Shown here piece by piece: positions 2,008-36,324 of a stretch of 64,000 bases of DNA. The stretch is from Labia minor (lineage: Eukaryota > Arthropoda > Insecta > Dermaptera > Spongiphoridae), in contig OY720349.1 of assembly GCA_963082975.1 (NCBI GenBank), forward strand, positions 69,066,501 to 69,130,500, written 5' to 3'. A program made the position numbers and the translations under genes. Below the pieces are notes generated by a model. The model did not search any database, was not told where the DNA came from, and saw nothing but the letters and a program-made list of their open reading frames with translations. Each line of letters starts with the position of its first letter. Position 1 is the stretch's first letter.

Positions 2008-3481
2008 CTAGCTGCTCAGAGCGCCTTCGGCGCTCTTCACACCTAGACGGGGGCTCCGCCCCCTGTACCCCCGAGTGGTACATAGTATTTGGTGGTTGAA
2101 TGTAGTAAAAGGTTTTCATCCATTTTGTTTCAATCAGTATATTACATAAAACATTCATTTCTTTTTGTGTTCTTATTTAAAAAATATATTTTAATTTAAT
2201 CACTATATTAATTATATATATTATTATTGTATATGTTATATCTATCTACCTATGTGGCTCAAAGATACTCGAAAGTTCTTAGCCGCAACAACCACATTTC
2301 TCCAAGTGTCCCTATCCTGAGCCCTTGTTCCATCTCTCTTACGTCCCTTCCTACGCGTCATTGGTTTTCCAAGCGGACGTTTTCCAATCGGTCTTCCCAC
2401 CAATATCTTTTTCCTCTCCCATTCTAGCCACGTGCCCTGCCTATCGCAGCTTTTTCCCTTTTATAACCCTAACTATTTCTGAAGATGCAGAGAGGCCATG
2501 CAATTTCTTGTTATGCAGTCTCCCCCATTCCCCGGTGACCTCATCTTTCTTTGGCCAATAAATGCAGGGAAGAATCCTATTCTCAAACACTCTGAATCTG
2601 CTCTCATCTCCCAGGGTCATAGACCATGCCTCCCACCCATATAATGCAACAGGCAAAATAATTTTTTTTATATATTCCCTTTGATAATAATTTTGAAGAG
2701 ATAAGCCTCTTTATTGCAAGATAACAGGCGTTTCCCGATTGCAACCCCGATTTAAATTCTTCTCAAATATTATTATCCTTCGTGATTACATTCAATTTTT
2801 CTACATATTCAAATTCTACATTTTGTATCTTAAGATTTTGTATGTCAATACTCTTCCTCTTTGTTACTAAATATTTTTTCTTATCACTATTAATTTCAAA
2901 CCTCCATTAATTTTTCCTCGCTATCTGCAATTGCAATTTCCTAATCTCCTATTATATTTAAGTCGTCTGGGTAACCTAACATTTTACAATTGATTTCCGC
3001 ATCTTATTCTTTCTTTACTACCTTCAAGAGAAATTTGAAGATCAAAATTTGAAAAAGTTTATGCTGATCTATATTGAGTCATGTGTATGTTTTACTAAAG
3101 TCTACAAATAATTAGTAAACAGAAATATTGAATTCGCGGTTTTTTCCTAATATCTGTCATAATGAAAATATCTTAATTAATGTTGGTCGATTTGGCCTGA
3201 ACCCGCAATGATATCTGCTAATATTTCCTCCGCCTATGGTTCTTAAGTATTGCATATGTTATAATAGTGAAATAGAGTATAATATTTCTTGATCATTACA
3301 TTTTGGTATTTTATTTTCATTGCTAGATTATTATTGAATATTTTTAATTATAATGAAACTTGAGAAAATGCAAAAATAGAGACTTGAGACAATTTATAAA
3401 AATTAACGGTATAAAACTATAGATAAATTATCAATATATACATTCATTAATAGTATTAATTTAAATTAATTGATTTATTTG
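2008..3481 (-). mobile_element. Helitron-like element, family D copy 2, carrying a LINE RT tail
   Basis: Near-copy of 54-1526 in the same orientation, with the identical terminal hairpin and CTAG end at 2008-2011. Differences are single bases and small indels, such as an extra GGT near 2090 and CAGGCG against CAAGTCG. It carries the same RT tail (best frame 2441-2656, minus). The two copies being close and similar suggests recent activity or a local duplication. Outside 3481 the flank differs from that of copy 1, so the shared block is an element and not one large tandem duplication. Confidence 0.6.
2256..2670 (-). pseudogene. LINE reverse-transcriptase C-terminal fragment (second copy)
   Basis: Same relic as in the first family D element: YGWEAWSMTLGDESRFRVF and KKDEVTGEWGRLHNKKLHG are visible in the 71-residue frame at 2441-2656. 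One residue (GRLHNKK here, GRQHNKK in copy 1) and several silent differences separate the two. Both share the same frameshifts downstream, so the damage predates their separation. Not a functional enzyme. Confidence 0.75.
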
Positions 3482-3862
3482 TTTTTTTATTATTAAGTTC
3501 ATTTATTAATTTTTTTAGATCATAGTTATTTTCCTTAAAAGAAACTTAAATTCTGTGGTGCTAGGGGATTTGAAAATTATTCGTCGCAATATGAAGATTT
3601 CGCTTACAGTTTCTGTCATGTCCGACCTCCATCCAACAGTTATTTTCTGTCAAGTTTTTTGCTTCTCTTAATCATGTGATCTATATATTTAATTTTTTTT
3701 GATTCATTATAATAAAATTTAAACAAATAAAAATTTTTACTTTGTTAATTTATATTAATTTCAATATAAACTGATTGTGAGTGATACGCTTAGCCAATAC
3801 TCTGAATAATTTGTGTACAAAAATATTGAATGTTCTTAGCGAGATTTGATATAATGTTGTAC

Positions 3863-3903
3863 GATTTGTCCTAAATCTGAATTAGAAGAAAATTATAAAT
3901 TGC
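3863..3903. repeat. Family G repeat, left part of the interrupted copy
   Basis: Forty-one bases beginning GATTTGTCCTAAATCTGAAT match 1539-1579. After position 3903 the match breaks and resumes at 4917, so an insertion of about 1.0 kb separates the halves. Confidence 0.6.
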
Positions 3904-4916
3904 CTCCTTTTCCAGCTCAATTCATTTACCCACCCATGTTGCATATGGCATCTAAATTTCTTAAAACTCCGTTTTTACCGACCGACGATAGTAAGGGAGG
4001 TATTGTTTTCACACCAAATTTCACATGTGGAGATTTTTACATATCTCCACGAATCATGCATTTTCTAAACAGAAAAAAGTATTTTTAGCATGATGTCTGT
4101 CCGTCCGTCTGTCCGTCTGTCCGTCCGTATAGATGTGTACAGCCTGAACGGCTCAACAGATTTTGATGAAATTTGGTATATTTGCTTAATGCATCAGTGG
4201 GATGAATTGATCAACTTTTGGTGCAATTCCGGAAACCGGAAGTGGTAGTATTAGCGATCGACGATAGGAAGGAAAGGGTTATTTTCACACCAAAGGAGAT
4301 TTTTTTATATATCACCACGAATCATGCACTTTGTATTGGTTTTATCCTCGAGAAAAATCATATTTATTAGTTTTTTCTTGATTTAAAATTATATGACGTC
4401 ATCCAGCCATTCATGACGTCACAGTCTGGTCTTACATATATATTATAAATAAAATAAAATTAAAAATATTTATGTTATATCCATATCTGTTTTTTATTAC
4501 ATTAATAGATATATGAAAATTATTTGAAATTGTTTCTGTAGCTGGAAATTAATTTATTTCAAACAGTCGGTCGGTTCGGACCTGGCCACAGGTCAACTTA
4601 TTTTAATTTAAAATAGAAGGAGAGAAAGAGTTTTAAATTATATTCGAATAGTCTATATATTCTATATATCAGTATTTTTTTTCTGAATTTAATAGCAAGT
4701 TGATTTTAAAAATTTTCCATTCTTAATGCATATGATTGATTACATGTGTTAAAATTTAAAAAAATTCAAATATTCTAATTTTTATATTTATATACAATTT
4801 AATATTATTTTTTATTAATATCATATCAAAAAACGAGAATTTATTAAAAATTAAAAATAAAAAAAGAAGCCTATTAATAAAAAATTGAATGGTGATTTAA
4901 ATATTTTATTAAATTA
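3904..4916 (+). mobile_element. Family F repeat, itself split by a family B element
   Basis: The two outer parts (3904-3975 and 4601-4810) match one continuous stretch at about 61186-61450: CAATTCATTTA, a CATGTT block and then AAAATAGAGGGAGAGAAAGAG. The 61-kb copy lacks the family B element, so it is an empty site. The family F element itself lies inside family G at the point that is continuous at 1579/1580. No coding potential was seen, and its termini were not resolved. Confidence 0.5.
3976..4600 (+). mobile_element. Helentron-like non-autonomous element (family B), copy 1
   Basis: It begins TACCGACCGACGATAG and ends with CGTCGGTCGGT, the hairpin GACCTGGCCACAGGTC and AACTTA. ACCGACCGACG at the 5' end is the exact inverse of CGTCGGTCGGT just inside the 3' end, with the hairpin beyond it. 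This is the asymmetric inverted-repeat plus 3' hairpin layout described for Helentron-associated elements. A (GTCC/GTCT)n microsatellite lies at about 4095-4130, and two TGACGTCA-type palindromes near 4395-4420. It interrupts family F within a run of T, and no target duplication is seen, as expected for rolling-circle elements. It has no coding capacity. Confidence 0.65.
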
Positions 4917-17436: not shown

Positions 17437-17441
17437 TATGT
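17437..17441. repeat. 5-bp target-site duplication, left of LTR element
   Basis: TATGT lies directly before the left LTR and again directly after the right LTR at 21396-21400. Confidence 0.7.
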
Positions 17442-17799
17442 ATAATAATGATCTATCTATTTTAGTGGGTTTTATATGAAATGAAAGACTTAATTGCGTT
17501 TTCAATCTGAAAATCAGTAGCTGAAATTCAGAAGTTTTTTTATTATTATAATTAAGATAATAAAAACAAATATATAAAGTTTATTATAATATTACCTGAA
17601 ATTCAGAAGAAACAACATTTAAAGCCTTTTATTATATTTTGTTTATTTAAATATTGCTTCTTCAAGATTAGGAACATTATCACAAATTAAACTCAAATAC
17701 TTCTGTCAAATATAAAAATTTTAACTCCTCTCTTTCTATCCAATCAGAGCGCCACCATCGGTGCGCGGGGAATATTCAAAATAATAGAGTAATATTACA
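17442..17799 (-). repeat. 3' LTR of minus-strand retroelement (358 bp)
   Basis: Identical by eye to 21038-21395 over 358 bases. On the minus strand it begins TGTAATATTACTC and carries a GC-rich patch (CCCGCGCACCGATGG) and an AATAAA-type signal. It is preceded on the minus strand by a polypurine tract. Its end (ATTATTAT) lacks the usual CA. Confidence 0.88.
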
Positions 17800-17810
17800 T
17801 CTCCCCCCTT
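17800..17810 (-). promoter_or_regulatory. Polypurine tract
   Basis: The minus strand reads AAGGGGGGAGA directly ahead of the LTR start TGTAAT. This is the position and composition expected for plus-strand priming in LTR retroelements, and it sets the element's orientation. Confidence 0.8.
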
Positions 17811-17859
17811 AAGGGAGAACGTAGTTCGAATTAAGAATCAAGTGTATTTAACAATGGGG

Positions 17860-18830
17860 TCAGTTTCTGTTTCTTATTTTTCTTTCTTTGCCTTTAGCTT
17901 CAGCATCTTCTTCTTCTTTCTTTGCTTTAGCTTCGGCTTCTTCTTTTTCTTTCTTTGCCTTAAATTCGGCTTCTTCTTTTTCTTTCTTTGCCTTAGAATC
18001 GGCTTCTTCTTTTTCTTTCTTTGCCTTAAATTCGGCTTCTTCTTTTTCTTTCTTTGCCTTAGAATCGGCTTCTTCTTTTTCTTTCTTTGCCTTTAATTCG
18101 GCTTCTTCTTTTTCTTTCTTTGCTTTAGCTACAGCATCTTCTTTTTCTTTCTTTGCTTTAGCTTCAGCATCTTCTTTTTCTTTCTTTGCTTTAGCTTCAG
18201 CTTCTTCTCTTTCTTTCTTTGCCTTAGAATCGGCTCCTTCTTTTCCTTTCCTTGCTTTAGCTTCAGCTTCTTCTTTTTCTTTCTTTGCCTTTAATTCGGC
18301 TTCTTCTTTTTCTTTCTTTGCTTTAGCTACAGCATCTTCCTTTTCTTTCTTCGCTTTAGCTTCAGCATCTTCTTTTTCTTTCTTTGCTTTAGCTTCAGCT
18401 TCTTCTCTTTCTTTCTTTGCCTTAGAATCGGCTCCTTCTTTTCCTTTCCTTGCTTTAGCTTCAGCATCTTCTTTTTCTTCTTCCCTTTTTGGTACTTCTA
18501 TCTTCTCTTCTTCTTTCCTGGTTCTTCTATCTTCTCTTCTTTCTTTTCTGGTACATCTATCTCTTCTTTTTTTTTTATATTCAATTCTTCTATTAAAATA
18601 TTATCATATTTTTCTTTATATTCGATTTCATTTTGTTCCACTTCTTTGAATTGCATGTAAAGTTGATTAATAGTATCAAGGTCTCTCACAATATTAGCTT
18701 TTTTATCGTTTAAATCGTTTAAGATTAATCTAAATTGATTGATAGATAGTTTATTGTTTTCATCAATTTGATTTATATCCAATTTAAAATTCTTTAGTTC
18801 GTTTAATAGATTTATTTTTAATTTCATCTC
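17860..18830 (-). CDS. Coiled-coil protein with 18 eleven-residue repeats (element-borne, one frameshift)
   Basis: The C-terminal half encodes about 18 tandem 11-residue units of the type KAKKEKEEAEF/KAKKEKEEADS (17894-18487), ending at TGA 17862-17860. Charged and alanine-rich 11-mers are hendecad coiled-coil (KEKE/LEA-like) repeats. Upstream (18498-18827) the sequence is also predicted coiled coil: FKLDINQIDENNKLSINQF and LNDKKANIVRDLDTINQL. A single-base indel near 18500-18520, within a repeated GAAGAGAAGATAGAAG motif, separates the frames; without it the reading frame would be continuous. The position between pol remnants and the 3' LTR is where accessory or env-like ORFs usually lie. No signal peptide, membrane span or known enzyme motif is seen. 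Function unknown. Confidence 0.5.
17894..18487 (-). repeat. 33-bp tandem repeat (about 18 units) with a 198-bp higher-order repeat
   Basis: The 33-bp units encode 11-residue repeats on the minus strand. By variant order, units at 18092-18289 recur as 18290-18487 (six units, 198 bp). Distinctive variant units such as the one containing CTCCTTCTTTTCCTTTCC appear in both, showing recent block duplication inside the array. The plus-strand frame 17888-18649 is only the antisense shadow of this array. Confidence 0.85.
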
Positions 18831-18897
18831 ATCAAAACATTGAAAGTACTGTTTAAAATTAAGTCGGATTGATTAAAAATTTCTAAATCTTCGGAAA

Positions 18898-19234
18898 TTA
18901 AATTATTTTCAAGATTTTTAGGCAATGAATTATAAGTTGATACGTTAGTAACATCAAAGTCTTGTTATCAATAAGTTTTTGTTTTACATTTTCATATTCT
19001 TCAATGTCTCGTAACAGGTTATTATTTGTAATTTCTAAATCCACAATCTTTTCATGTATACCTTGCGAATGATTATTTTTTTCTTCCATTAATTCAGTAT
19101 TTAATTCTTCTAATTTTAAAATCTGTTCTAAATGTCTTGTGTTTTCATTATTTAAGTTGATATATTTATTTTCTAATTCAATTTTTTCTAATGTAATTTT
19201 GTTCAAATCATCATGTAATTGTACATGACTTTCA

Positions 19235-19238
<4 letters not shown>
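18898..19238 (-). CDS. Coiled-coil segment of LTR-element ORF
   Basis: The minus strand reads from FESHVQLHDDLNK into ITLEKIELENKYINLNNEN, then LEELNTELMEEKNNHSQG and VDLEITNNNLLRDIEEYENV. It is rich in E, K, L and N with heptad-like spacing of hydrophobic residues, so a long parallel coiled coil is the likely structure. It follows an A tract (19239-19281 on the plus strand as T) and continues the same type of sequence seen further upstream. A frameshift near 18960 breaks it before the next coiled-coil block. Partner and role are unknown; there is no enzymatic motif. Confidence 0.5.

Positions 19239-19281
<43 letters not shown>
19239..19281 (-). repeat. 43-base A tract in element sense strand
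   Basis: Uninterrupted T on the plus strand. It is read as a lysine run between NHL and KFLKV on the minus strand. Confidence 0.95.
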
Positions 19282-19285
<4 letters not shown>

Positions 19286-19610
19286 GGTTGACTGTTTCTA
19301 TTGAAAATTGTTCTTTCTTTTCGAGATCATTTTGTAAAAGCGTTATTTCACCTTGTAATTTTTCAATTTCTCCTAGATAATATTTTTCTTCTTGTAACAC
19401 TTTAAGGTTTCTTTGCAAATCATATACTTTTTGTTTAAAGTTTTCTTCCAATTCATCACTATATTCTTTAAATTCATCTAGTTTATTAGTTAATAAAGTG
19501 TTTTCCTTTTCAAGGTCATCAACTTTTTCTGTGAAGTCAGAAAGTTCTTTATTATTTATATTTATTATTTCACACTTACCATTCACATCTTCTAATCTAA
19601 TTAATAAGTT

Positions 19611-19611
<1 letters not shown>
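19282..19611 (-). CDS. Coiled-coil segment of LTR-element ORF
   Basis: Between two long A tracts the minus strand encodes NNLLIRLEDVNGK, KVDDLEKENTLLTNKLDEF and LQGEITLLQNDLEKKEQF. Leucines recur every 3-4 residues amid E and K, typical of a coiled coil. The frame runs from lysine codons of one A tract into those of the next. Similarity is to generic coiled coils (golgin- or myosin-tail-like by composition only); no specific family is claimed. Confidence 0.5.

Positions 19612-19658
<47 letters not shown>
19612..19658 (-). repeat. 47-base A tract in element sense strand
   Basis: Uninterrupted T on the plus strand, between QENIQLLQ and NNLLIRLE on the minus strand. Confidence 0.95.
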
Positions 19659-19659
<1 letters not shown>

Positions 19660-19876
19660 AAGTAATTGAATATTTTCTTGAATTATATTGTGTTGGTGAA
19701 GCAATTCTTCATACTTTAATTTATGATTATTTTCTTCTTTCTCTTTTATCTTCGATTGTGCATCCGTATGAACGTTTAGAACAATATTCGTCTACCATCG
19801 ATATGTGCCTCGTAATCTTTTACAGTTCCACTATCGTATTTGTCTTTAGCAAAGATTGATTTATATGTATCAATTA

Positions 19877-19880
<4 letters not shown>
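19659..19880 (-). pseudogene. Truncated start of a gypsy-type reverse transcriptase joined to coiled coil
   Basis: The minus strand reads FLIDTYKSIFAKDKYDSGT then VKDYEAHID, the conserved entry to the RT domain in one group of gypsy-type Pol proteins. The frame then shifts near 19790, after which an EYCSKRSYGC-like stretch is seen. Instead of the RT fingers, palm (YxDD), RNase H and integrase, the sequence passes within about 30 codons into coiled-coil sequence (LKYEELLHQHNIIQENIQLL). The join marks a deletion or recombination that removed the catalytic Pol domains. It cannot encode an active polymerase. Confidence 0.65.

Positions 19881-19916
<36 letters not shown>
19881..19916 (-). repeat. 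36-base A tract in element sense strand
   Basis: Uninterrupted T on the plus strand, separating TKYKF from FLIDTYK on the minus strand. Confidence 0.95.
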
Positions 19917-19923
<7 letters not shown>

Positions 19924-20600
19924 TATTTTGTGTGATTTTTTAAATTTTCATCTTGATTTAATTTGAACTCCTTTATACAGTCTAGTCCAATTAGAAAATC
20001 GTAACTAAAATTTCTATCTTCTACGATGAACACATTCATGTATTTCTCAATATCATAAATCTTTATTTTTAATTTTACCATTCCATCTGTTTTCCTCTCA
20101 CCATTAATTGTCCTCAAGTTAACTAATTTTAAATCACATGTCAATAATTTCTTTTTCTTTTTAACTTCAATTACCAATTTTTTGTATTCATATCTTTATT
20201 TTAATATAATATGTTATTATATGCATATACATACTATAAATAAAACTTTATATATAATTTTAATCAATTTTCTTCATTTTATTTGCTTTAGGAAAAACAC
20301 ATTTAATGTTAAATATAAACTATAATTTTAACTTGCTTTAAATTAAAGGGTATTATTATGATTATTAATAAAATTATTTTTAATTTATTATTGAATATTA
20401 TTAATGTAGAAATATGTTTTTTTTTTTTTTTTTTTTTTTCAATAATTTCGAATTTATTAATGACACATTTGCTCCTGAGTCATAAATTGCTGTAACTTCC
20501 GTTGAGTTATTTAATAGTAACTTGATTTTAATTAATGGTGGCACTATAAAATTTTTGGGTTACCTTCATTTAATTCGACTTCTAACTCTGAGTGGTTGGC
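19917..20600 (-). pseudogene. Retropepsin-like aspartic protease remnant of the LTR element
   Basis: The N-terminal part (about 20440-20570) reads STEVTAIYDSGANVSLIN, with the DSGA catalytic motif. A 23-base A tract and AT-rich DNA then interrupt it. The C-terminal part (19917-20177) reads NVFIVEDRNFSYDFLIGLDC, containing the hydrophobic-hydrophobic-G pattern (LIG) that closes retropepsin folds. The intervening flap region is lost or replaced. The order and spacing fit a gypsy-type protease split by the insertion. Upstream, CWFKNTNSENLNRDQLH suggests the end of a gag zinc knuckle. Confidence 0.65.
20417..20439 (-). repeat. 23-base A tract in element sense strand
   Basis: It begins within the lysine codons that follow NSKLL of the protease remnant. 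Confidence 0.95.
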
Positions 20601-20927
20601 AGTATGTAGTTGATCTCTATTGAGATTCTCACTATTTGTATTTTTAAACCAGCAAATTGATTACTTGGTTTAATGATTTATATTCACTCGTTTTTCTTTT
20701 ATTATATTCCTTTTTCATGTCTTCTTTTAATGAAATTATTTCATCTTTTAAACATTTATTATCTTCTTTTAATGAAATATGCTTGATTCTATTTGTATTT
20801 TTATTTATTTAGTTTTAATTTTATTTATTATTTATTTTAATTCCACTTTGATTTATTTCAATTTTATTTATTATTTATTTTATTTACCTTAATTATTAAT
20901 TATTTTGATTTATATATATTTAGTCAT

Positions 20928-20978
<51 letters not shown>

Positions 20979-20993
20979 TCTTAGCTTTTCCAT
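20600..20993 (-). pseudogene. gag remnant of the LTR element
   Basis: ATG at 20993-20991 opens MEKLRS, then runs straight into a 46-base A tract. Beyond it are AT-rich stops and a short coiled-coil-like piece (ISLKEDNKCLKDEIISLKED, about 20700-20770). A possible zinc-knuckle end (CWFK, about 20650) follows in another frame. Most of gag is missing or unreadable. The ATG is only about 45 bases from the 5' LTR, a very short leader. Confidence 0.45.
20930..20975 (-). repeat. 46-base A tract in element sense strand
   Basis: Uninterrupted T on the plus strand, directly after the MEKLRS opening codons. Confidence 0.95.
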
Positions 20994-21037
20994 TATTTTT
21001 ATTTATTTATATTTTATCTTGGCAAAAATGTTGTTTT

Positions 21038-21395
21038 ATAATAATGATCTATCTATTTTAGTGGGTTTTATATGAAATGAAAGACTTAATTGCGTTTTCA
21101 ATCTGAAAATCAGTAGCTGAAATTCAGAAGTTTTTTTATTATTATAATTAAGATAATAAAAACAAATATATAAAGTTTATTATAATATTACCTGAAATTC
21201 AGAAGAAACAACATTTAAAGCCTTTTATTATATTTTGTTTATTTAAATATTGCTTCTTCAAGATTAGGAACATTATCACAAATTAAACTCAAATACTTCT
21301 GTCAAATATAAAAATTTTAACTCCTCTCTTTCTATCCAATCAGAGCGCCACCATCGGTGCGCGGGGAATATTCAAAATAATAGAGTAATATTACA
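21038..21395 (-). repeat. 5' LTR of minus-strand retroelement (358 bp)
   Basis: Identical to 17442-17799. It is followed on the right by the duplicated TATGT. Identity of the two LTRs implies a recent insertion. Confidence 0.88.
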
Positions 21396-21400
21396 TATGT

Positions 21401-29245: not shown

Positions 29246-29830
29246 CTACGGTACTCGAAAGTTGTTGGCCGCAGCAACCACTCTCCTCCAAGTATCCCTA
29301 TTTTGAGCCACAACCCTCCAATTCCTACCCTCTCCCATCTCTCTCACGTCCCTTCCTACCCACCCACCACGTCCTTGGACTTCCAAGCGGTCGTTGCCTA
29401 TTCGGTCTCCCCACCAATTTTTCACCATTCTTTCCTCTCCCATTCTAGCCACGTGCCCCGCCCATCGCAACCATCTTGATTTTATAATTCTAACTATATC
29501 TGGAGATGAATAGAGGTCATGCAATTCCTCGTTATGGAGTCTCCGCCATTCTCCGGTGACCTCATCTTTCTTTGGCCCAAAAATGCCTCGCAGAATCCTA
29601 TTCCCAAATACCTTAAATCTAGTCTCGTCTTCTAAGGTCATAGACCATACCTCACACTCATATAATACAACCGGTACAATAATTGTTTTTTTTTAATTTT
29701 TATCCCCTTTGATAATAATTTTGAAGCGATAAGTCCCTTTAGTGCATGATAACAGGCGCTTCCCGATTGCAACCTCGCTTTAAATTCTTCTCGAATATTA
29801 TTATCCTTCGTTATTACAGAACCTAAGTAA
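29246..29830 (-). pseudogene. LINE reverse-transcriptase C-terminal region (best-preserved copy)
   Basis: The minus frame 29246-29641 encodes 131 residues: FKVFGNRILRGIFGPKKDEV, TGEWRRLHNEELHDLYSSPD and IVRIIKSRWLRWAGHVARMG, ending DTWRRVVAAANNFRVP and a stop. The frame extends upstream through YECEVW. This is the typical end of insect RTE/craft-like polyproteins. The middle (NWWGDRIGNDRLEVQGRGGW) looks frameshifted from the usual GKPEGKRPLGRPRRRW. No catalytic RT motif is included: a 5'-truncated LINE. Unlike the copies at 0.3 and 2.4 kb, it is not followed by the Helitron hairpins, so it represents the LINE outside family D. Confidence 0.8.
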
Positions 29831-35139: not shown

Positions 35140-36324
35140 AGCGATGGCAGATTCATTGTGGACATACTACATTACGACATTTTTCACAAAAGAAAAAAAA
35201 AGCAAAATGCCTAAAGTGTCTAAATAAATATTTAAGTTGTAAGTAAGTTGTAAGGGATCGTCAACTAGTGGTCTGATAAGACATTTGAAACATGTCCATA
35301 AAATAAATATATTAAAACGGAATGCAAATGATGATCAAGTCGCTGGTCCAAGCAATACAGGAAATTTTTCCACAAAATCAATAAATCAACCTCTAATATC
35401 AACTTTTATTAAAAAGCAATCTATGTCTGAAATATTAGCCGGACTTGCAGCCGTTGATGGATTTTCAATTCATGGAATTTGCAAAAGCGAATTCATTTGT
35501 CAAGCGTTGTCTGATAAACAATATAATTTACCAAAGAACAAAAATAATGTAATGAAATTAATTCACGAGTAGTACAAGTTTGCAAAAGATCAAGTAATAA
35601 GTAGAATTAAATCTCATCAAGACCCTTGTGGAAAATTCAGTCTCCCATTAGATGAGTAGACGAGTTTACGGAACCGGAGGTATTTGAATATAAACATTCA
35701 TTTTAATAAAATATATATTAACTTAGGATTATTAAAAATTGCAGCTGATAAAATAATTAATTTGATAAATTCAAAATTATCTGATTTTAACATAAATTCA
35801 TCAGATGTAGTTCCATCAACTACCGATGCTGCTGCTGTTATGGTAAAATTTGGAAGATTGTCTGAATTGATTCACCAATTATGTTATAGCCACGGCATAC
35901 ATTTAGCAGTAGCAGATGTAATTTATAAAAAAACAATAACAAAAGCGAAAACGATACCAGTGATAATGGATCTAGCTCATCTAGCTGATATGACTTTTCC
36001 GAATCTGATAATGATAATGAAGATGGGCCAAATGATGGTGTAATCCATTTATGTGAAGTAGATGATATAAAACCTGCTTTAGAGATGGTAAGGAAAATTT
36101 CAAAGTTTTTTAAAATTTCTCCCCCTCCCCCCCCCCCAAAAAAAAACTCGATATTACAAGAATATGTCAAGGAAAAGCATGGGACAGAATTAAGTCTACT
36201 TTTAGATTGCAAGACTAGATGGACCATGGTCGAAAGATTTTTGAAAATTGTTGACTCCGTTTCATTGGCATTAAAAGACTTAGGATCTGGAACATTTATG
36301 AATGATGATTCATTTCTTATTTAA
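35140..36324 (+). pseudogene. hAT transposase (ZBED-like), truncated and broken
   Basis: Pieces in order on the plus strand: a BED zinc-finger remnant (CLKC near 35208, then GLIRHLKHVHK); NQPLISTFIKKQSMSEILAG (35285-35572); after a stop, a DEWTSLRNRRYLNINIHF-like segment; NSSDVVPSTTDAAAVMVKFG (hAT TDGA motif region); IHQLCYSHGIHLAVADV (hAT CxxHxLxLxVxD motif); and KHGTELSLLLDCKTRWTMVE (hAT TRW motif). At least four stops or frameshifts occur, and a proline run (about 36121-36140, C tract) interrupts it. The C-terminal dimerisation domain is missing. After 36324 the sequence joins the 3' UTR of the family D LINE tail, so it was truncated by another element. It is a different family from the CAGGGCTTCGAACCG hAT. 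Confidence 0.8.

Follow-up and report, generated by a model that had tools for sequence, protein, structure and literature searches.

A non-autonomous Ty3/Gypsy family with probable host-derived coiled-coil cargo in Labia minor

Long terminal repeat (LTR) retroelements that carry host-gene sequence have been described previously. Maize Bs1 and the process of LTR-mediated retroposition (Tan et al. 2016), as reported in PMC5408686, involve LTR elements with host-gene sequence that was joined via template switching at short similarities. The subject of this work is a minus-strand LTR element of 3.96 kb at positions 17437-21400 of the window, i.e., the whole 64,000-nucleotide stretch of the Labia minor genome that was analyzed (GCA_963082975.1, contig OY720349.1, positions 69,066,501 to 69,130,500). 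The element very probably belongs to a non-autonomous family of Ty3/Gypsy elements that took up host sequence by transduction and was then amplified in trans as a passenger. As with Bs1 and LTR-mediated retroposition, sequence of apparent host origin is found within an LTR element. Unlike Bs1, one host gene is present in several permuted pieces along with a probable second gene, and dozens of near-identical copies, a recombinant, and an autonomous relative are found in the same genome (PMC5408686).

Other non-autonomous LTR elements provide further points of comparison. LARD and TR-GAG elements are flanked by LTRs and keep their cis-acting signals; unlike TR-GAG, the window element has no intact Gag. 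It resembles TRIM elements in being non-autonomous and LTR-flanked with retained cis signals, but it is neither minimal nor purely noncoding by origin (PMC10886601). TelKA2n from bdelloid rotifers keeps an env-like open reading frame, whereas the extra sequence here appears host derived and is broken (PMC5408684). No equal case was found by title or abstract in the literature on coiled coils, TA targets, gene capture, Tf1, and slippage, a scope that did not extend to preprints and most subscription journals. The value of the system is that the putative donor gene, the passenger family, the autonomous relative, and a relative–passenger recombinant coexist in one genome with little divergence, which makes gene capture by an LTR element readable almost step by step.

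A recent mosaic family, its putative donors, and its relative

The window element has the marks of Ty3/Gypsy elements: an LTR pair, a short target duplication, and a polypurine tract. The LTRs show no difference across the 354 bases compared, the duplication is TATG (TATGT when the last LTR base is included), and the polypurine tract AAGGGGGGAGA directly abuts the LTR start TGTAATATTAC. A protease active site, DSGANVS, can be read from the sequence, and Gag is mostly deleted. The element lacks the reverse transcriptase (RT) core, RNase H, and integrase, and nothing in it aligns to element positions 2207-4584 of the autonomous relative L041 (described below). An earlier note made from the letters alone had described just such a recent element, with a TATGT duplication, a polypurine tract, a protease, and the start of RT in the absence of the catalytic core, and all of this is borne out. 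Pfam searches with six frame pieces gave only matches below the cut-offs, including Asp_protease at E 0.046. The protease piece had no match in the PDB, and an Rfam scan of the window also gave none.

As the earlier note had supposed, the element is part of a family rather than a one-off rearrangement. A search with the LTR across the 604-Mb assembly (71 contigs) turned up 173 first-look candidates, of which 40 were scored, each at 100% identity after rounding. Among the 20 places fetched, two LTRs were present in all 14 that had been listed with two and in five of the six listed with one, giving 20 copies with the window included (L027, with one LTR in 9.9 kb, was excluded). The structure of the window element is common to all 20. 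These copies are 97.8-100% identical in ungapped internal columns and fall into three groups of ten, eight (including the window copy), and two. The LTR cores of 19 copies do not differ; in L023 the pair is set apart by one 1-nt gap, and its 81 raw mismatches are ascribed to the resulting shift. At the outer edge of the 5' LTR of L013, the five terminal bases are other than TGTAA. The sequence TATATA lies beside the insertion in 19 of the 20 copies, compared with 5.5% of random window positions; the exception is the window copy, where the target reads TATACATA. The copies that were mapped lack an RT core, RNase H, and integrase of their own yet are recent, which suggests that the family moved in trans. 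Two variant forms were also found. L051 (C2:76541000-76546000) is a tandem array of the form LTR-cargo-LTR-cargo-LTR from which nearly everything between the primer-binding site and the end of the coil is deleted, and L043 (C1:10327300-10331800) is a related passenger that retains donor segments missing from the window copy.

The order of parts in the element is that of a mosaic. The 5' LTR is followed by the gag start, a poly-A tract, the gag end with the N-terminal half of the protease, an insert, the C-terminal half of the protease, and the RT start. Next come pieces corresponding to residues 1455-1740, 1166-1181, 1218-1261, and 1319-1410 of a donor frame (L050), then 33-bp repeats, the Pol end, and the second LTR. 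Ends of the type found in the relative enclose the cargo, with the LTR, primer-binding site, gag end, protease, and RT start on one side and the Pol end and polypurine tract on the other. At 19732-19744 the alignments to the host donor and to L041 overlap. The donor pieces are permuted relative to the L050 frame and are all in sense orientation. Their order is the same in eight of the nine elements tested, with L020 lacking a match to 1166-1181; the ninth, the deleted tandem form L051, retains only 1363-1410. In the copy L015 the host pieces are 94-100% identical to the donor, except for one 79-nt piece at 82%.

A donor for the coiled coil was identified by searching the genome with the coil piece P0002, where all 104 candidates were scored and gave 61 rows. 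One row (C1:25488110) sits in an open frame of 2325 amino acids, free of N, within a 9.9-kb locus (L050) without LTRs or any further frame of at least 150 amino acids. The frame encodes an extended coiled coil in which some ten 74-amino-acid repeats can be seen by eye, with A-runs spaced 222 nt apart. Among the other 60 rows, 27 were read, and every one of these falls within an LTR element; they represent 26 elements, of which L043 is truncated at the edge of its locus. The 2325-amino-acid frame had no Pfam match at E 0.001. A protein database gave no match for donor residues 900-1700 (7990 candidates scored) and none at E 0.001 for the coil query (eight candidates); length rules applied to both searches, and the eukaryote coverage of the database is uncertain. 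Sequence comparison offers L050 as a putative host gene and donor of the coil, in line with the proposal in the earlier note that a host-derived coiled coil stands in place of Pol.

The 33-bp repeats match a frame of 3930 amino acids on C6 at 83-89% over 609-709 bases, and L061 (C6:1558000-1561000; 3,001 bases read, no N) is part of this frame. It is a second giant repetitive frame, made of 11-amino-acid K/E/A repeats. The array probably came from it; array and L061 both consist of repeats, so this source is given as no more than probable. Other frames with 33-bp repeats are listed at C5:6028803 (1826 amino acids) and C4:61583123 (932 amino acids). Frames of 1012, 1061, and 965 amino acids in L057, L058, and L060 were discarded as artefacts of N stretches, which start inside the 33-bp array and comprise 2500, 2037, and 1563 N, respectively (those in L058 and L060 are cut by the locus end); they may be assembly gaps or withheld sequence.

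The autonomous relative was sought with the protease piece, and because 150 of 636 candidates were scored the counts are lower bounds. Besides the family itself, at least 15 places match at 92-93%, and in at least 12 of these the match falls within an open frame of 1033-1034 amino acids. L041, the one of these 12 that was read, has identical LTRs, a gag frame of 387 amino acids, and a pol frame of 1033 amino acids with the order protease, RT, RNase H, integrase. It has Pfam matches to RVT_1, RNase H, integrase, SH3_Tf2-1, and Asp_protease, where those to SH3_Tf2-1, Asp_protease, and rve fall slightly short of Pfam's own cut-offs, and its best PDB match is Ty3 Gag-Pol. Only about 30 bases separate the pol frame from the LTR, leaving no room for a coil. 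The search for an autonomous relative and for a host gene with the same coil, as recommended in the earlier note, was productive, with L041 (lacking the coil) and L050 as the outcome.

A further element, L042, combines the two types. Its LTRs are of the window type and its gag frame is 387 amino acids long. Element positions 401-2000 are 100% relative-type, and the sequence from 2401 to the end is window-type at 98.5-100% per 200 bases. In between, positions 2001-2200 are 92.7% relative-type versus 99.4% window-type (over 167 bases), and positions 2201-2400, which contain an A-tract, are 88.9% window-type; the switch point lies near the A-tract at the protease–RT linker. L042 appears to be a recombinant of autonomous and passenger types, and a single switch of template between two RNAs sharing a particle would explain it, which points to co-packaging. 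Together with the shared cis signals, it suggests that the passenger is mobilized by proteins of the relative.

These components can be arranged into a proposed origin. Within a virus-like particle, RT would have switched templates, leaving retrotransposon RNA for host mRNA and later returning. The resulting chimera would have retained the cis signals, so that Gag and Pol of an autonomous relative could copy it and integrate it, mostly at (TA)n sites. Freed from coding constraint, the passengers may then have expanded their A-runs, which would have gone on to serve as sites of deletion and recombination.

Probable self-priming and growth of A-runs

In Tf1 the self-primer is 11 nt long. The window element has a comparable arrangement, where AAACAACATTT directly after the 5' LTR is the exact complement of AAATGTTGTTT within the LTR. 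The pairing holds in the window element, L041, L042, and L051-L054; L043 has the primer site, and its LTR end was missed by the test. When 50,000 LTRs were simulated, 30 contained the 11-mer. Each of three other Gypsy families has a site of a different sequence that is complementary to its own LTR, over 11 nt in L044, 13 nt in L045, and 11 nt in L046, with the best of 20 offsets kept in each case and the simulation covering only the 11-mer of the window/L041 type. L044, L045, and L046 are each inserted in (TA)n. In the predicted fold of the window element the primer pairs with the site (z -3.45, with 1 of 200 shuffles as good), and the same pairing is predicted for L041 (z -2.00, 7 of 200). 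A tRNA-type primer site (TGG beside the LTR) was not seen by eye in the window element, L041, or L042, with no scan made against tRNAs.

Minus-strand synthesis is probably self-primed in a Tf1-like manner, with an 11-nt stretch of the RNA of the element serving as primer, as the complementarity and the predicted folds suggest. Self-priming has been named for Tf1/Sushi, Tcn1, and TAR elements (PMC6317226). As in the Tf1/sushi type of Ty3/Gypsy element, the site beside the LTR complements RNA of the element itself. Unlike that type, the L041 Pol is without a chromodomain match at E 0.001, and the sequence of the site varies between families with complementarity retained (PMC6317226, PMC3601003). 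These sites suggest that Gypsy families prime their own reverse transcription, including one with no recognized chromodomain.

The passengers are also marked by long A-tracts. In 26 elements there are 132 A-runs of at least 12 on the element strand and no T-runs of that length; L051 has no such A-run, and L043 carries 11. The remaining 60,043 bases of the window contain 19 runs of A or T that are 12 or longer, with a maximum of 18. The sources contain A-runs of 4-8 nt versus tracts of 12-85 nt in the passengers, and in the seven elements mapped the tracts with a credible source trace to runs of 4-8 in the donor or the relative. Several one-sided donor matches (near 84, 2532, 5424, and 6000) were set aside as apparent chance matches. 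The tracts coincide with differences between copies: L010 is without the stretch running from A-tract 1 into A-tract 2, and L020 retains a linker of about 167 columns that the other 19 copies have lost at tract 3.

A known parallel is found in Alu elements, where A-tails lengthen by slippage of the L1 RT, as shown experimentally (PMC3415434). Here, too, A-runs appear to grow while a passenger RNA is reverse transcribed, but unlike the Alu tail these are internal runs of an LTR passenger, and their growth is read from comparison rather than experiment (PMC3415434). Growth by RT slippage is the probable explanation; run lengths were taken from the assembly and may include error, though the sites are common to copies. 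This suggests A-tract growth inside an LTR passenger. It is conceivable, and we put it forward only tentatively, that this self-primed Gypsy lineage forms a modular system jointed at its A-runs, in which RT would lengthen these runs and jump between them so that passenger, helper, and host RNAs are repeatedly reassembled into new mobile mosaics.

Junctions, alternatives, and the fate of the coding sequence

Homology at the junctions of the mosaic is clear at two of the four and weak at the other two. At the 1740/1166 junction an exact homology of 10 nt is found in all four other copies tested (L015, L043, L052, L054), and at the relative/host junction the homology is about 7 nt, as read from sequence comparison instead of the exact test. 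At 1181/1218 and 1261/1319 there are 3 and 6 nt when a neighboring substitution is allowed. Overlaps of 13, 10, 6, and 7 positions, derived from alignment coordinates, were rejected as measures of homology when they shrank under the exact test.

A number of observations weigh against the proposed origin. In the window copy itself, the exact test gives just 4 nt at 1740/1166 and 0 nt at 1181/1218 and 1261/1319. All captured coil pieces lie within one open donor frame, so intron loss gives no proof of an RNA step. The insert at 20139-20424 has no assigned source, with short matches in six loci. The LTRs of the window element and L041 are just 87% identical in ungapped columns (74-77% with gaps included), so the immediate helper may be an element other than L041, and mobilization in trans by the relative is something that we infer. 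Some copies have open frames of 251-384 amino acids across the coil end and repeats. With respect to the A-runs, the sources are rich in A-seeds with hardly any T-seeds, which tells against a simple law of slippage; the A7 run of the LTR is unexpanded in the 20 two-LTR copies and L042 (its pattern was unmatched in L043 and L051-L054); and one A27 is present in L044, a different autonomous family.

Four alternatives were weighed against transduction by template switching. The permuted order could derive from one circular RNA, with a back-splice from near donor residue 1740 to 1166, instead of from several template switches, given that 1455-1740 followed by 1166-1410 is a simple circular permutation. 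This is improbable, if the best placed of the four: the junction falls inside one open frame, shows the 10-nt homology described above, and has no splice-site ends, and the gaps at 1181/1218 and 1261/1319 require events beyond a circular RNA. Capture at the DNA level, by ectopic recombination or insertion with later amplification, would fit the single open donor frame and the scant homology at two of the four junctions. It is judged unlikely, since reverse transcription accounts better for several separate joins among sources, all in sense and with the cis ends preserved, and L042 resembles the product of one template switch. A somewhat poorer prospect still is that the 2325-amino-acid frame belongs to another mobile element and that the coil moved between elements. 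The frame lacks Pfam and database matches, as might suit such an origin, but it is the single frame of its kind among the 61 coil rows, and no other sizable frame accompanies it at L050.

The remaining alternative concerns the coding capacity of the cargo. A coding origin is evident: within each of the six pieces, one sense frame holds 0-1 stops and the other two hold 4-29, the single stop being the piece's own end. Hydrophobic periodicity of 3.5 residues reaches significance in three of five pieces (p 0.001-0.007); the 33-bp repeats (p 0.87) and the one remaining piece (p 0.58) show no significant signal. The earlier note had envisaged a coiled-coil open reading frame of more than 1.5 kb, and while the coil coding origin stands, the cargo consists of five frame pieces behind a sixth (protease and RT start), split by frameshifts and poly-A tracts. 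In all seven copies tested, the host pieces show 1-8 new stops, 2-19 frameshift gaps, and a ratio of nonsynonymous to synonymous substitution rates (dN/dS) of 0.69-1.35 against the donor, the lowest value being that of the window copy; these values come from plain, uncorrected counts on non-independent copies, with few synonymous changes (4-16). The majority of substitutions between the window copy and L015 change the amino acid. For the relative-derived part, six copies have dN/dS values of 0.22-0.53 and the seventh has 1.05; the low values are read as constraint on the lineage of the relative.

That the coil is a working accessory or gag-like protein under selection in the family is thus highly improbable: the open frame kept by each cargo piece, the longer frames in some copies, and retention of the cargo in all 20 two-LTR copies are set against the stops, frameshifts, dN/dS values, amino acid changes, and absence of space for a coil behind pol in L041. 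From these comparisons the cargo is passenger DNA, with no function as a protein indicated. The earlier note had left both options standing; its passenger option fits, as does its host-derived coil in a family moved in trans, and the structural role that it had offered is rejected.

Feature coordinates and neighboring sequence

Features of the Labia minor window element, in window coordinates (identities are to the source named or, for host-gene pieces, to the donor frame L050)
Feature	Position	Strand	Remarks
Target-site duplication, left copy	17437..17440		TATG; CATA on element strand
3' LTR	17441..17799	-	354-base core same as other LTR
Polypurine tract AAGGGGGGAGA	17800..17810	-	Same tract in L042, similar one in L041
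Last codons of relative-type Pol and polypurine tract	17800..17867	-	L041 element positions 4585 onward
33-bp (11-amino-acid) K/E/A-rich repeat array	17868..18570	-	Probable second host gene, L061, 83-89% DNA identity
Putative host-gene piece, donor residues 1319-1410	18571..18844	-	97.8%
Putative host-gene piece, donor residues 1218-1261	18838..18966	-	99.2%
Putative host-gene piece, donor residues 1166-1181	18961..19005	-	91.7%
Putative host-gene piece, donor residues 1455-1740	18996..19744	-	79.6%, gaps counted; internal deletions and poly-A tracts
Poly-A tract 5	19239..19281	-	43 A
Poly-A tract 4	19612..19658	-	47 A
RT N-terminal start	19732..19890	-	L041 element 2043-2206, 91.6%
Poly-A tract 3	19881..19916	-	36 A; protease–RT linker kept here in L020
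Protease C-terminal half	19896..20138	-	L041 element 1658-1899, 95.9%
Insert splitting protease	20139..20424	-	286 bp, AT-rich; short matches only, six loci
Poly-A tract 2	20417..20439	-	23 A
Gag end and protease N-terminal half with DSGANVS	20425..20662	-	L041 element 1414-1651, 95.4%
Poly-A tract 1	20930..20975	-	46 A, element strand, after Gag start codon
Gag start codon	20991-20993	-	Upstream of poly-A tract 1
Presumed primer-binding site AAACAACATTT	21026..21036	-	Complement of LTR-interior stretch
5' LTR	21037..21395	-	354-base core same as other LTR
Presumed self-primer AAATGTTGTTT in 5' LTR	21206..21216	-	Complementarity to AAACAACATTT
Target-site duplication, right copy	21396..21399		TATG

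Elsewhere in the window, LINE-like fragments were recognized by eye at 29246-29692 and 485-829, both on the minus strand, and a hAT-like transposase fragment, also by eye, at 35660-36324 on the plus strand.

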